Origin: a virus
IMG/VR virus record: IMGVR_UViG_3300009550_000043
Span: 1 to 30,437 of that record
Direction: 5' to 3' (one strand)
Length of the DNA stretch: 30,437 nucleotides
This document shows, one piece after another, positions 12,476 to 29,643 of the stretch. How positions within the stretch are numbered: the first letter of the stretch is position 1; every line of letters begins with the position of its first letter. The position numbers were made by a program, and so were the translations under genes. The notes below the pieces were generated by a model, which saw only the letters and a list, made by a program, of their open reading frames with translations, ran no database searches and was not told the DNA's origin.

Positions 12476-13969
12476 TTATATATTTATATCATGCAGATTG
12501 TAATCAAACTTTTCTTTGGAATATATTTTAATTCTTTCAGCTGCATGGTTGAGTGTATAGTTTTTCCTTGACTTCCAATGTAAATCATCAGCTATGTCAA
12601 AGACCTTAGTATTTCTACCGTCCGGAGATTTCCTCAAACCTCTTCCTATTGATTGTAGGACTCTAATTTGAGATTTACTAGGACTTGCAAAAACAATATT
12701 GTGAAGACGCTTAATGTTAATACCAGTAGAAAAGGTACCAAGAGAAGCCACAATAATTGCATTGTCCTCTTTTTCAGTAATTGCACGGGTATCTTCTCTG
12801 CTATCAACATCGGTTTCTCCAGATACATAGAATAGTTTTCTATCATCTTTTATTTTTTCCTTTAATAAATTGTGTAATGGTTTTCCATGCTTTTCAACAT
12901 AATTAAATAATACTAATGTATTACCTTCTAGGTCTAAAGCCAGGTTAGCTATAAAGTTATTTCTTGGTTGATATCCTACTATAAAATCTATCTCTTCCTG
13001 ATAATCTCTTTGTACTTTACAGTATTCATCTTTATATTTTAATAATAACATATCGATACTTAACTTAGCAAGAGTATCATCATCCATTAATTGTTTTGTG
13101 GTTGTGACTTTATGTACAGGTCCAAATAAACCTTCCAATACTAATTGATGTGTTTGAGTACCATCTAACGTACCAGTACATCCTATACGATATTCAGCTT
13201 CAGTACATTTTTCCATAATTGATGTTAATGATTTAGCTTTAAACTGATGAGCTTCATCTCCAACAACCATACCAAACCTTTGATACCATTGTGGCCCTAA
13301 TTTATAAATCGATTGCCAGGTAGATATTATAACTCTATTCCTTATATTATCTCTATCTGCTCCACCATATACTTTATAACATAATTCGTCGTTATTAAAT
13401 GTATCATCTTGTGAAGAATACTCAGCAAAGTCAGAGTACATCTGCTCAACCAATGATGTGGTGGGTACTATTATTAATACATCATCTTTACAGTAATCTA
13501 AATACCATTTAATTGCCAGATATATAATCAGACTCTTGCCTGAGGCCGTAGGTGATAATAGTAATCCATTCTTATTCTGTAATGTGCACGACAGTGCATC
13601 TAGTTGATAGTTCCTAGGTATTATCCTATTACCTGCACCAGAAATCACCAGAGGGTCCAAAAAGGCTTTTAGGTCAATATTTTGAGTTTCACCCAAATTA
13701 CCGTAGCCCGCAGATGCGGCTGTTATAACCTTGTAGCCCCTCACTTCTGCGAACTCTTTTAAATATTTGAATAAACCGTTATATAAAGTTTGTCTTTTAT
13801 AATCATAAAGTCTTATCTTTCCATCCCACATACGATTACGGTATGCTGGCATAAATTTATAACCTGGAACGAAAAAACAAAAATGTTCGGACAATTCTTT
13901 CTCAATGCCCTTATCACATGATACGTACATAAACGTTTCATTCATTTTTGCTACTTTAATTACATCCAT
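12476..13969 (-). CDS. uvsW: RNA-DNA and DNA helicase UvsW
   Basis: 497 aa. Superfamily 2 helicase motifs: PTASGKS (motif I, 140-146), IVPT (Ia), GDEAHQF (motif II, DEAH at 238-241), CTGTLDG (motif III), and QSIGRGLRKS (motif VI, about 443). The N-terminal portion has the PGYKFMPAYRNRMWDGKIRLYD segment typical of UvsW. It unwinds R-loops and branched DNA and promotes the shift from origin- to recombination-primed replication. In T4 it is a late gene; a TATAAATA lies 54 bp upstream, inside the previous gene. It overlaps the glycosyltransferase-like gene by 10 bp. Confidence 0.95.
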   Translation of the reverse strand: MDVIKVAKMNETFMYVSCDKGIEKELSEHFCFFVPGYKFMPAYRNRMWDGKIRLYDYKRQTLYNGLFKYLKEFAEVRGYKVITAASAGYGNLGETQNIDLKAFLDPLVISGAGNRIIPRNYQLDALSCTLQNKNGLLLSPTASGKSLIIYLAIKWYLDYCKDDVLIIVPTTSLVEQMYSDFAEYSSQDDTFNNDELCYKVYGGADRDNIRNRVIISTWQSIYKLGPQWYQRFGMVVGDEAHQFKAKSLTSIMEKCTEAEYRIGCTGTLDGTQTHQLVLEGLFGPVHKVTTTKQLMDDDTLAKLSIDMLLLKYKDEYCKVQRDYQEEIDFIVGYQPRNNFIANLALDLEGNTLVLFNYVEKHGKPLHNLLKEKIKDDRKLFYVSGETDVDSREDTRAITEKEDNAIIVASLGTFSTGINIKRLHNIVFASPSKSQIRVLQSIGRGLRKSPDGRNTKVFDIADDLHWKSRKNYTLNHAAERIKIYSKEKFDYNLHDINI

Positions 13970-14859
13970 AATATATTTTGAATTCTTAGTTTAGTTGTCT
14001 CAACATCTGTACATAAATATCTATTTATATACCAATGAATAAACATCTCGTTTTCCTTATGGCTGTACCATGAGATATCTCTTATAGCACTCTTTAAGTG
14101 TGGTAATGTTTGTATTTTTTCTGTGACCCAATGATATTCAGGAAATCCATAAGATATAATAGGAACGTTATGCATCATACATTCTATACCTGCGGTACTA
14201 TTTTCTAGTACAGCTACGCGCGCGTGTGGGAGCACGTCATGTATACTCACGTAATCGGTTATAACTGTAATATCCCTTTCCTTCCATTTTTCTATTTCCT
14301 TTGCTCTCATTTGGATATCCCTATCCATGGCTGGGTGTAATTTAACTACGATAGGTGTATCTTCTATAGCATTTACTATTTGACTTAATTTTCTCCAATG
14401 GTCTCCAAATCCAAATCCATTTACTGTTTCATCGTGTGGCTGTTGACCTATTATTAATATATGGTCTTCAGGTATTTTTACTTTTGGTTTACGCCATTTA
14501 AGTAATATTGATTCATCCCATTTATTTGATTTTTTATCTATAAGTTCTCGTATATATTCTTTCTCGCCTTTATAATTCATTTGATAATCAAAAGGATTCA
14601 TCCACTCAGGTTCTATATATGCCATCTTAGAATCATTAGCATATCCCCAAGTATCTAAAGCAAAATGTTTATTAGTTGGAGCAGTTGGTTTTATTATAAT
14701 AGTATTATCAGTTCTTGGCCAATTTGATATATGATTATAGAAATTTAATTCAGCTTCATCACTAGTTTCTGTATGTCCTAGTTCATTCATAGCAGTACGA
14801 ACGATATTCTCGTATCGAGTCATATTAGTAAATTTGTATTGGTGTATCTTATATTCCAC
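13960..14859 (-). CDS. capsule-polysaccharide/glycosyltransferase-like protein
   Basis: 299 aa. The C-terminal half has features of capsule-synthesis (KpsC/KpsS-like) and CDP-glycerophosphotransferase-type GT-B enzymes: ILIIGQQPHDE, then VVKLHPAMDRD, and the donor-site-like ENSTAGIECMMHNVPIISYG. The N-terminal half includes FYNHISNWP and KHFALDTWGYAND. It could add a sugar to phage DNA, phage structural protein or host surface glycan; the sequence does not tell which. It lies between uvsY and uvsW, overlapping both (11 and 10 bp), an unusual place for such an enzyme. A TATAAATA within its 3' end may drive uvsW. Confidence 0.78.
   Translation of the reverse strand: MEYKIHQYKFTNMTRYENIVRTAMNELGHTETSDEAELNFYNHISNWPRTDNTIIIKPTAPTNKHFALDTWGYANDSKMAYIEPEWMNPFDYQMNYKGEKEYIRELIDKKSNKWDESILLKWRKPKVKIPEDHILIIGQQPHDETVNGFGFGDHWRKLSQIVNAIEDTPIVVKLHPAMDRDIQMRAKEIEKWKERDITVITDYVSIHDVLPHARVAVLENSTAGIECMMHNVPIISYGFPEYHWVTEKIQTLPHLKSAIRDISWYSHKENEMFIHWYINRYLCTDVETTKLRIQNILWM
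14023..14030 (-). promoter_or_regulatory. possible late promoter for uvsW
   Basis: TATAAATA on the minus strand inside the end of the glycosyltransferase-like gene, 53 bp before the uvsW ATG. T4 uvsW is expressed late, which makes this copy plausible, but in AT-rich coding DNA such matches also arise by chance. Confidence 0.4.
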
Positions 14860-23210: not shown

Positions 23211-24641
23211 TTAGTCTTTAGTGTAAGCGTCATCTTTACCGGCATAATCGCTAACTACGAATTTTCGGTTTGGATGTACTGAGACCCTCAATTTGGTCAT
23301 AGTTTTACGATTAACTAACATTTCAGATGCAGTATCTTTCTCAGTTAACCCTAATTCTATTACATATTTTCTATTATTAAAAGTAATTCCATGTTCTACA
23401 ACAGGTCTTGTATCAAAATCTTTCTTACCTCTTTTAGGTTCGGATATATCTACTATCTCGCTTTCAAACTTTAATCCATTCTTTTCCCATTTAGCCATAT
23501 CACCATCAACTTCTAATTTATCTACATGTAGCATAGTTGCTGAGGCTGAATTACCTGTATCAAACTTAGCTCGAATAAGATTGTTTTCCATTCCATCTAG
23601 TTTGATTGATTCAATGAATCCTACTTCTTTTCTCATCATAGGTCTTCTATTTTCTTCTAATAATAACCTATCAATAACTTTTCCAAGTACTAATTCATCT
23701 TTTATTTTCTTAGTTGGTTCACCTTCTTCGTCATATCCCATAAAATGAGAACGAATACCAGGTGAACCATTTACTTCAAGTACATATATATTCTTACCAA
23801 TTTTACAATGGTCAACACCACAATATACAGCACCAGATGTTCTGGCTGCTTCTACAATTACGTGTTTTTCTTCATCGGTTAAAACATAAGGCTCTGTATC
23901 GGCTCCTAAATGTACATTATTTCTAAATTCTTTTGTGTCTCTTTTAATTCTTTCAGCTGCTCCAATGATTTCTCCATTTACTACAAGAGTTCTTATATCT
24001 GATTTAATATCAAAAAATTCTTGTATTAAAAGGTCAGCATCAAATTTCCATAATGATTGACAAACTGATGTTAAGGATGCCATATCATTTACTTTCGATA
24101 CACCAACACCCTGTGTACCTGTTAATGTTTTTATAATTACTGGGAATTTACCACCAACTCTTTTATGAGAATCTTCAATTGATTTAACATTATTCACAAT
24201 TGCTGTTCTTGGAATTGGTACATTATTTCTTTCTAATGCTAATGATGATGCCATTTTATTATCACATAATAACATAGATTCTAAATCATTAACTAAGAAA
24301 AATCCGATTGTTTGCATAGATGATACTAAGGCTTGTGCTGTCATTGATTGTATAGCTCCGGCCCTTACAAATATAATTGAGTTATGTATATTTACAGCAA
24401 TACTAGTATCCTCACCATCTATATTTCTTAATTTAACTTCACCAATTTCAACATCCGATGATGTAATATAAGCTTCAGTAATATCAACAAGAGTATGTTT
24501 TATTCCTCTCTTCTTAGCAACTTTCTGAATTAAATCCGCAAAGGTTCCTTCCTCATCACTAAGGCCAAGTACAACTATTTCAAGCTCGCTAGGCTTGAGC
24601 TCTTCTTCTTTTTCTACTAAAAATTCTGTGAACCTTTCCAT
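23211..24641 (-). CDS. RimK-like ATP-grasp ligase fused to a RimB/retropepsin-like domain
   Basis: 476 aa. Residues about 20-330 form a RimK-type ATP-grasp ligase: DNKMASSLALERNNVPIPRT, VIIKTLTGTQGVGVSKV (nucleotide-binding Lys and glycine-rich loop), GVDHCK and the metal-binding LEVNGSPG (288-295). Residues about 338-476 resemble the retropepsin-like "ATP-dependent zinc protease" family (PF05618, RimB-like): IRAKFDTGNSAS with D361-T-G, then FDTRPVVEHGITFNNRKYVIELGLTEK and MLVNRKTM. RimK adds glutamates to protein C termini (ribosomal S6 in bacteria) and RimB-type proteins are encoded with RimK in some bacteria; here both are one chain. It lies between gp17 and gp18, overlapping gp17 by 25 bp. 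Substrate unknown: ribosome or virion protein are both possible. Confidence 0.88.
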   Translation of the reverse strand: MERFTEFLVEKEEELKPSELEIVVLGLSDEEGTFADLIQKVAKKRGIKHTLVDITEAYITSSDVEIGEVKLRNIDGEDTSIAVNIHNSIIFVRAGAIQSMTAQALVSSMQTIGFFLVNDLESMLLCDNKMASSLALERNNVPIPRTAIVNNVKSIEDSHKRVGGKFPVIIKTLTGTQGVGVSKVNDMASLTSVCQSLWKFDADLLIQEFFDIKSDIRTLVVNGEIIGAAERIKRDTKEFRNNVHLGADTEPYVLTDEEKHVIVEAARTSGAVYCGVDHCKIGKNIYVLEVNGSPGIRSHFMGYDEEGEPTKKIKDELVLGKVIDRLLLEENRRPMMRKEVGFIESIKLDGMENNLIRAKFDTGNSASATMLHVDKLEVDGDMAKWEKNGLKFESEIVDISEPKRGKKDFDTRPVVEHGITFNNRKYVIELGLTEKDTASEMLVNRKTMTKLRVSVHPNRKFVVSDYAGKDDAYTKD

Positions 24642-26233: not shown

Positions 26234-26624
26234 CGATTACATTATCCTTAGTATCTAATAACATTCTTTGAAGGTCTGTACTACTGCCCACGAAAACATT
26301 ATTATTTGTCACTTCTCGATTAACTTTATCTTCTTTTTTATTTTGTAAATCGTCTTTATCTTTTTGAAGTTTCATTAACTTCTCAGTTGTATCACCTAAA
26401 TCTTTTATTGTTTTAGATAATACCTCAAATGCTCGCGGGTGCTCGCTCTCGCGCGCGAGCTCAGCTAGAACATCTAAAGAACTGGTACCAGTTCTTATTA
26501 AATCTTTATAAGTTGCTCTTGAAAATTCATAATCATCTTTTATATCTTTATCTACGATAGGACGATTAGGAATCTTTTTTGGAAGATTTTTATCCAGAGC
26601 TTTCATCATTTTATCTTTTTTCAT
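26214..26624 (-). CDS. 16: terminase small subunit gp16
   Basis: 136 aa (T4 164). Helical protein with DDYEFSRATYKDLIRTGTSSLDVLAELARESEHPRAFEVLS followed by a central coiled coil (KTIKDLGDTTEKLMKLQKDKDDLQNK), the layout of T4 gp16, and VFVGSSTDLQRML near the C terminus. It recognises phage DNA and stimulates the gp17 ATPase. Its ATG overlaps the gp15 stop by one base. A very GC-rich palindrome lies inside the gene at 26448-26459. Confidence 0.92.
   Translation of the reverse strand: MKKDKMMKALDKNLPKKIPNRPIVDKDIKDDYEFSRATYKDLIRTGTSSLDVLAELARESEHPRAFEVLSKTIKDLGDTTEKLMKLQKDKDDLQNKKEDKVNREVTNNNVFVGSSTDLQRMLLDTKDNVIDAESQK
26448..26459. other. GC-only-core palindrome in gene 16
   Basis: Perfect 12-bp palindrome CTCGCGCGCGAG inside the gp16 coding sequence, within about 30 bp of unusually GC-rich DNA in an otherwise AT-rich phage. 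In T4 a packaging-initiation (pac-like) site has been placed in gene 16, so a recognition role is possible. Confidence 0.4.
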
Positions 26625-27712
26625 TATGTGACTATATCTATTCTTCCACCCATACCACTATGGTTTGCACAATAGTAGTAAAGTACAGATGGTGTGTTAT
26701 CATCTATTACAATTGTATTTGACCCTGAAGCTTCGGTTGTTCCAGTTTCATATTTAGTTCCACCATTGTGTGTTCCATCAGATGTAGTAGAAAAATTAAG
26801 TGGGTGAGCTGTTGGGAAATTAAATTGATAAGTTCCACCTCTTTGGAATGAGAACCCAGCTTGTTGAGTGGTATTCCAATAATAGGCATTACCGGTACCA
26901 TATTGTTTAGCTGCCACTGTTAGTGTATATACTGACAATCCAGTCTGTTCGTTTTGTCCGCCACCATCAATTACAGTTGTGACTGTATAATTATCATCTG
27001 CATCAGCTTCAGTTTGTGTGACTCTAATATCCATTTCTTCTAATATTTCTGTACCACTTACATTATTATTTAAATCTATATTTACTTCTCTTATTATACC
27101 TGTGTTTGAAGCTGGGCCATAGAATTTCATTTTCATTGTGAAATCTAATTGATAGGTTAATACTCTTCTACTAGTATAATCACCTTCATATTCATCAGCA
27201 ATACTAACACCACTTAATACGATAGGAACATCTTGTTTTAATGTTGTCCAACCATCAATTGGTTTTATTGTGACTGTATACTCAGGCTGAAAATATGGAA
27301 GTATTTGTTCCATAATTTGTAAACCATCATCTTGGTTTTTAGCTAATATAAACAATGACATACCAATATCATAGGTTGTATAATGTTTAATTAATTTTTT
27401 CTTATTTACATCTGAAGCATTTGTTTCTGAAACCGCAGCTTTCTTAGTTAATCTTTGAGCTGAATCTAATGATAAGGAAGTTATTTCAAAAGCCATCCTT
27501 GGTAATTTAATTGCCATGTTAGCATCAGCACCAGTTTCGTTATCTAATCTTGATAAGAACTTTTGCTTAGGACCATAAGCTAATGGTACTTTCATAGTAT
27601 TAATAATATTACCAGAAGAATTTCTTCTTACAACTTTCATATTATTAAACAATGTACCAAATACGGCCACTGATTTTCTCATTGTTGCATGATAGAACGG
27701 GTCACCAAACAT
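26624..27712 (-). CDS. 15: tail terminator gp15 with C-terminal cupredoxin-like domain
   Basis: 362 aa, against 272 for T4 gp15. Residues 1 to about 230 look like gp15: MFGDPFYHATMRKSVAVFGTLFNN, then PRMAFEITSLSLDSAQRLTK and MSLFILAKNQDDGLQIMEQILPYF. gp15 caps the sheath and joins the tail to the neck. Residues about 262-362 are an added domain with YQFNFPTAHPLNFSTTSDGTHNGG and a C-terminal YYYCANHSGMGG. The spacing H303, C348, H351, M354 is that of a type-1 copper (plastocyanin-like) site. Similar HPL...YYYC-NHSGMGG modules occur in other marine phage proteins as I recall. A likely displayed domain on the virion; copper binding is inference. Confidence 0.9.
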   Translation of the reverse strand: MFGDPFYHATMRKSVAVFGTLFNNMKVVRRNSSGNIINTMKVPLAYGPKQKFLSRLDNETGADANMAIKLPRMAFEITSLSLDSAQRLTKKAAVSETNASDVNKKKLIKHYTTYDIGMSLFILAKNQDDGLQIMEQILPYFQPEYTVTIKPIDGWTTLKQDVPIVLSGVSIADEYEGDYTSRRVLTYQLDFTMKMKFYGPASNTGIIREVNIDLNNNVSGTEILEEMDIRVTQTEADADDNYTVTTVIDGGGQNEQTGLSVYTLTVAAKQYGTGNAYYWNTTQQAGFSFQRGGTYQFNFPTAHPLNFSTTSDGTHNGGTKYETGTTEASGSNTIVIDDNTPSVLYYYCANHSGMGGRIDIVT

Positions 27713-28668: not shown

Positions 28669-29643
28669 TTACCCCGAGAAAAAATCAACTGGTCTTTCCC
28701 AATTCAATCTTGCTTCTTCTTCTAATAATGTTATTTCTTCTTTGGCATCATCAAATAATTGACGTCCATTAAATGCAACACCACCCGGCATTTGCATTCC
28801 CTCAAATTTTAATAGGTTTTGGCCCCATTGCCTTTTAATTAAAGCAGTAGCATATTTCTTTAAATAATAATCATTGTATATATCAGTATAAGTTGCTGGG
28901 TCTATAACCCTTATACATTCAATAACCATATACTCATCTGGTAAAACTTCTTCATCCCAATCCATGAATATTTCTAATGTATTTCTATGACGATTAAAAT
29001 CTATGTGTTTTTGGTCTGAATCAATCACTTTATCTAATAAATCTAAATATTCCATACTCATTACGTATTCAGCTAAACTTCCCATAAAGCCAAGGTTATA
29101 CATATCGTGTAAATGTATTTGATATCTTACATCGAACATATCGCTTGAGGATACATCATCTCTTATTGGCATTACTCTAACAACGTCGGTAATTAAACTA
29201 TTAATTGGTATATAACGATTCTCTATATCACCCTTAGATATTCCATTTGCTGCAATTGTACCTGTAGCTCCTGACGTTCCACCAGTAATTACATCACCAA
29301 CTTGAAATGCTATATTAGAATCTACTAATGCGTTATATCTTAACTTAGTAGTACTTGTGACTGAATCGATAACAGCCTTTGCACCGGATGTTCCACCTGT
29401 AATAGTTTCTCCTTTTACAAATGTACCATTTGAAGCAGCTGCTGTTGTTAATTCTGAGTTTGTGACTTTATGTTTTAAATAGAATTTTTCTGTAGCATCA
29501 TCATGATATGTTTGCCAATATTGAATAGCTTCATCTACTCTATCGTCCAACTGGTCATCATCAACATTAATTTCTATCACTGGGAAACCCAGTTGACGTA
29601 AACAATAATCTTTAAATGTGTCTTTACTATTTGGCGCTGCCAT
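28669..29643 (-). CDS. 13: neck protein gp13 with repeat insertion
   Basis: 324 aa (T4 309). It starts with the gp13-like FKDYCLRQLGFPVIEINVDDDQLDDRVDEAIQYWQTYH and continues with YQIHLHDMYNLGF, SMEYLDLLDKVI and NFNRHRN-like FNRHRNTLEIFMDWDEE. Residues about 68-135 are an insertion with two copies of a G-(E/D)-x-I-T-G-G-T-S-G-A motif, a small beta repeat seen in many marine phage structural proteins. It starts after a late promoter and an AGGAAAGGA ribosome site. Confidence 0.94.
   Translation of the reverse strand: MAAPNSKDTFKDYCLRQLGFPVIEINVDDDQLDDRVDEAIQYWQTYHDDATEKFYLKHKVTNSELTTAAASNGTFVKGETITGGTSGAKAVIDSVTSTTKLRYNALVDSNIAFQVGDVITGGTSGATGTIAANGISKGDIENRYIPINSLITDVVRVMPIRDDVSSSDMFDVRYQIHLHDMYNLGFMGSLAEYVMSMEYLDLLDKVIDSDQKHIDFNRHRNTLEIFMDWDEEVLPDEYMVIECIRVIDPATYTDIYNDYYLKKYATALIKRQWGQNLLKFEGMQMPGGVAFNGRQLFDDAKEEITLLEEEARLNWERPVDFFSG

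Follow-up and report, generated by a model that had tools for sequence, protein, structure and literature searches.

The gp15-like tail terminator gene of a marine T4-like phage encodes a C-terminal extension, and this locus raises the question of what the added domain is and what it does on the virus particle. The window, that is, the whole stretch of DNA analysed here, is a 30.4 kb fragment (IMGVR_UViG_3300009550_000043) with genes for HSP20, RegA, the clamp loader and clamp, UvsW, the tail tube, the sheath, the terminase and neck proteins. Adjoining UvsW, the minus-strand ORF at 13960–14859 encodes a capsule polysaccharide biosynthesis-like protein (PF05159). Another minus-strand ORF, 23211–24641, lies between the gene for the tail sheath and that for the terminase; in its product a RimK-type ATP-grasp domain precedes a putative ATP-dependent zinc protease domain (PF08443 and PF05618).

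The gp15-like tail terminator, or tail sheath stabiliser, has 362 amino acids and is encoded at 26624–27712 on the minus strand, as are all the features of this protein given below. Its core comprises residues 1–243 (26984–27712) and belongs to the T4 gp15 family: PF16724 matches residues 6–242 (E 1.8e-65; 220.9 bits against a cut-off of 25), PHROG 227 matches residues 1–243, and the PDB structures of T4 gp15 (4huh and 3j2m) match residues 2–240 with E values of about 1e-22. T4 gp15 is homologous over this core and has no extension. At the core end lies the sequence YTVTTVI (residues 242–248; 26969–26989), a candidate sheath-augmenting strand by analogy with XM1 gp5. It runs into a linker that is modelled with low confidence (residues 244–258; 26939–26983), which is followed by a cupredoxin-like domain (residues 259–362; 26627–26938) recognised from an AlphaFold2 model, PDB matches and a profile alignment. 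The initial annotation had described some 100 extra residues beyond the core, and about 100–120 are indeed present after residues 242–243. The interval that it assigned to them, 26624–26929, corresponds to residues 262–362 plus the stop codon; the folded domain begins slightly sooner, near residue 259.

A structure model of the domain, proposed in the initial annotation as a check, returned a cupredoxin fold. The AlphaFold2 prediction, run with the gp15 domain aligned with 36 relatives, has nine strands, a pLDDT of 89.3 and a pTM of 0.80, and as predicted it is the Greek-key beta-sandwich of about 100 residues that characterizes cupredoxins. In this model, C348 closes the penultimate strand and H303 immediately precedes strand 56–59. 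The ligands of plastocyanin occupy these same places in its topology. Foldseek searches of the PDB gave top matches that are nearly all cupredoxins, including plastocyanin and a pseudoazurin with an amicyanin loop, with TM-scores of only about 0.5. With VIA-align, the top match was the N-terminal cupredoxin domain of the Hyphomicrobium denitrificans nitrite reductase (2dv6_A; model range 8–113, Z 10.1, rmsd 2.0 Å, 89 aligned residues), and small laccases ranked after it. This nitrite reductase domain (2dv6, 6tfo) is the best structural match as judged from the model but, unlike the phage domain, it belongs to a bacterial enzyme.

In a model of full-length gp15, the domain has a pLDDT of about 90–95 across most of residues 261–360, and residues 199–255 ahead of it fall below 50. 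A confident domain after a low-confidence stretch fits an independent, tethered unit, as far as the model can be followed; the mean pLDDT of the full-length model is 60, its core is poor and it gives no placement of the domain on the hexamer. The PDB search with the single gp15 domain sequence returned no match, and with the family profile the matches were weak, with pseudoazurin and plastocyanin near the top. Arrestin_N, Rab5-bind and similar weak single-sequence Pfam matches were dismissed as chance.

The putative copper ligands are H303 (26804–26806), C348 (26669–26671), H351 (26660–26662) and M354 (26651–26653), assigned from position, conservation and profile alignment. C348, the candidate thiolate ligand, is the sole cysteine of gp15, and M354 is the putative axial ligand. 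At the level of sequence, the four residues occupy the canonical type-1 copper positions, His and Cys-x(n)-His-x(m)-Met. Their positions had been given correctly in the initial annotation. The spacing is C-x2-H-x2-M and not the C-x2-H-x4-M of plastocyanin. This ligand loop has the spacing of amicyanin, a likeness in spacing alone and not in family membership. From the composition of gp15, the ligand pattern has a chance expectation of about 1.4e-4. The pattern H-x(35-60)-C-x2-H-x2-M occurs 127 times in the 99,338 residues of module-bearing ORFs and is absent from the 404,988 residues of module-free six-frame ORFs.

On one side of the profile alignment were 128 module rows, reduced to 71 by filtering; on the other were 18 sequences of PF00127 or plastocyanin type and one mis-picked fragment (L255). 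It joined the two profiles over 77 columns with P = 1.3e-4, against 0.071 for the reversed control, and paired the His, Cys, His and Met of the module with His37, Cys84, His87 and Met92 of plastocyanin. When only five cyanophage plastocyanins were used, P was 0.016.

In single-sequence searches against PF00127 the window copy is unlisted at E values up to 1, and 7 of 37 members match, the best with E 0.01. Over phage genomes, PF00127 finds module copies in P-SSM2 and P-HM2 at E of about 2e-4; phage copies other than that of the window score 19.8 and 19.3 bits, below the curated cut-off of 21.2. The At5g54830-like family PF25489 matches across most of the domain, again under its cut-off of 27, with 15.1 bits for the window copy and 26.7 bits for the best one, from Opitutae (L141).

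Among known systems, the module thus resembles the cupredoxins of PF00127 (plastocyanin, pseudoazurin and amicyanin) in predicted fold, in the His...Cys-x2-His...Met order and in the cysteine at the end of the penultimate strand. It differs from them in the greater distance from the first His to the Cys loop, in scores under the PF00127 cut-off and in its setting, since cupredoxins are free secreted carriers and the module lies within virion or surface proteins. Nor is it a plastocyanin proper: its C-x2-H-x2-M loop is two residues shorter, the first His is followed by Pro (HP) where plastocyanin has HN, and the domain, being part of a tail protein, is not a free carrier. Several module-carrying phages possess separate plastocyanin-type (petE-like) genes.

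The ligands are strongly conserved. Among 37 copies thinned at 80% identity, H303, C348 and H351 are present in all and M354 in 36, and the complete H-C-H-M set is kept in 80 of 91 non-redundant relatives; H and T occur as variants at the axial position. Because the IMG/VR retrieval was seeded partly on the Cys-loop peptide LYYYCANH, the conservation of C348 and H351 is inflated in that set; H303 and M354 lie outside the seed. The phage records, gathered by tblastn and a whole-genome profile, are less biased. Their 29 rows comprise 20 with HCHM, two that are halves of one intact site in S-RSM4, one with an axial Thr and six without the cysteine. The S-RSM4 copy (L117/L111) has an insertion between the first His and the Cys-His-Met loop and retains all four ligands.

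All six phage copies that lack the cysteine also lack H303, with D, K or N in its place, and they retain fold motifs such as G292, Y295 and P341. Masking the ligand columns of the model does not stop it from finding the family. The joint loss of H303 and Cys gave Fisher p values of 1.9e-5 among phages and 3.5e-6 among all copies thinned at 60% identity, where the counts are sequences and not independent events; the Cys-less copies probably represent four or five losses. Homologues that keep the fold without the ligands had been named beforehand as evidence that would tell against a metal site. They exist, but as a minority that loses His and Cys together, which is expected if the four ligands form one site and argues for a real one. 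The ligand-less copies also indicate that the fold can serve without metal.

The module is not restricted to gp15. The cupredoxin-type domain with a full type-1 copper ligand set that the initial annotation placed on the tail terminator is upheld by the AlphaFold2 model, Foldseek, VIA-align and the profile alignment, but it is not special to this protein. Searches across phages, also suggested there, showed that the module recurs in many marine phages: one query reached 74 phage records, mostly of cyanophages with a few pelagiphages and other marine records, and IMG/VR held 148 stretches with the module. P-HM2 and MED4-213 have five matches each, and P-SSM2 and P-SSM4 have four; within the 30 kb fragment only the gp15 gene matched, with no second copy.

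In phages, the carriers are tail fibres, baseplate wedge proteins, the T4-type terminator gp15, a gp17-type tail terminator and a head-tail adaptor (L036; phrog_211). The gp17-type terminator (L018; PF11367, phrog_176) is unrelated to gp15 and bears the module on its N-terminal side. Similar ORF size and module position are seen in L020, L022–L025, L032, L033, L044, L047 and L053. Cellular carriers were found in marine Bacteroidetes, Flavobacteriaceae, Opitutae, SAR86, SAR116 and archaeal genomes, in repeat-rich or surface-type proteins; within Flavobacteriales, 6 of 196 genomes match, the reference genome included. The marine bacterial and archaeal copies L135–L144, which lie in repeat-rich, collagen-like, RTX or lipoprotein-type proteins, suggest exchange between phages and cells. 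The module is a mobile unit of structural proteins in marine phages and of some surface proteins in marine bacteria and archaea. In BFVD, proteins named "Beta-sandwich" from Marseillevirus and Pithovirus genomes (A0A481YVH3, A0A481Z6J5 and others) match the module model with E of about 2e-7.

The extension is present on 16 of 59 distinct gp15 cores and absent from the other 43, and the tree of these 59 cores needs at least three gains or losses of it. All four ligands are kept in 14 of the 15 distinct gp15 module copies. The YTVTTVI sequence at the core end is retained in relatives with and without the extension. In phage XM1, the C-terminus of the tail terminator runs outward and joins a sheath beta-sheet; the crystal structure of T4 gp15 is missing its own C-terminal region (PMC10457771). 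The retained YTVTTVI, together with the outward course of the XM1 C-terminus, suggests by analogy that the added domain would lie outside the first sheath ring. Tethered by the linker to the core end of a hexameric gp15, it would be displayed in six copies per virion around the neck. Another neck protein of the window, the gp13-like head-tail adaptor encoded at 28669–29643 on the minus strand, also has an added module, an inserted GGTSGA-type repeat (about residues 60–135) that matches fibre and baseplate PHROG families.

Taking these data together, we consider it probable that the extension is a mobile, virion-displayed, cupredoxin-derived domain with one metal site, most likely for copper, and a role in decoration or adhesion. 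In this proposal, H303, C348, H351 and M354 would form one mononuclear type-1-like site. The phage protein would fold apo in the host cytosol and take up the metal after lysis, and the metal would mainly serve to lock a small beta-sandwich that acts generically in surface decoration or adhesion. Such a job could be common to the fibre, baseplate and bacterial surface copies. A metal-locked domain for decoration or adhesion would be the simplest role, given how many unrelated structural and surface proteins carry the module. A role in stabilising the sheath, also raised in the initial annotation, found no support. A point against copper is that phage virion proteins fold in a copper-poor cytosol.

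It is unlikely that the domain is instead a cupredoxin-derived beta-sandwich that binds zinc or another metal, or is usually apo, with the four residues kept for packing. Type-1 sites can accept zinc, and the ligand-less copies retain the fold motifs; against this, one buried Cys combined with two His and a Met makes a soft-metal set, and packing alone does not predict the joint loss of a His and a Cys that lie 45 residues from each other. That the same domain and site would have the metal itself as their function, with displayed copper or a scavenged metal acting as bait or cofactor for docking to a host metal-uptake receptor, is also rather improbable. Type-1 copper is largely buried, and copies also occur away from receptor-binding tips, in neck proteins and in surface proteins of bacteria and archaea. 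This docking role, a possible but unsupported copper version of the "Ferrojan/Trojan horse" idea for tail-fibre iron, would agree with the ligand set being kept in most module copies of tail, neck and fibre proteins, and it has a precedent in the iron proposed for HxH motifs in marine phage fibres (PMC11705849). Those HxH sites, in T4 gp37 and alterophage R22Y, resemble the module as metal-binding motifs in marine phage virion proteins, but they have another fold and other ligands (octahedral His, iron) and are located in tail fibres (PMC11705849).

A virion-borne device for redox chemistry, electron transfer or sensing, like that of a true plastocyanin, would agree with the complete ligand set, the axial M354 and the cupredoxin fold. 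It is nevertheless very improbable, and the redox sensing raised in the initial annotation found no support: neither a partner protein nor a docking surface was identified, many structural proteins unrelated to one another carry the domain as a fusion, and H and T variants occur at the axial position. Least credible of all is an ordinary immunoglobulin-like or other virion beta-domain in which the His, Cys and Met are coincidental. Ig-like decoration domains are frequent on phage virions, and BFVD names one of the module carriers as an Ig-domain protein; the fold search, however, is dominated by cupredoxins, all four ligands pair in the profile alignment, and the ligands are near-invariant over 37 diverse copies in a pattern that does not occur in 405,000 other residues.

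Cupredoxins are familiar as secreted carriers of electrons and as domains of enzymes. In the titles and abstracts searched, with subscription journals mostly outside coverage, no description of a cupredoxin-type domain in phage virions was found. The fold and the site are already known, and their use as a recurrent phage virion module seems new to the literature searched.

The cupredoxin fold with its ligand set appears here as a component used repeatedly in the particles of ocean phages, most of the records concerned being annotated as hypothetical, tail fibre or baseplate proteins. With the module profile, this domain can be annotated in many structural proteins of marine phages that currently carry the label unknown, and the recurrence of the module makes metal binding by marine virus particles directly testable. 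If the site holds copper, phage structure would be tied to trace-metal chemistry, and a simple colour-based test on one small domain would be available. More tentatively, and with some doubt on balance, genuine type-1 copper sites may be common on the virions of marine phages, supplied by a single cupredoxin module that moves horizontally and also occurs in surface proteins of marine bacteria and archaea. In that case, virus particles free in seawater would make up a pool that binds copper, and copper occupancy would affect particle stability or attachment.
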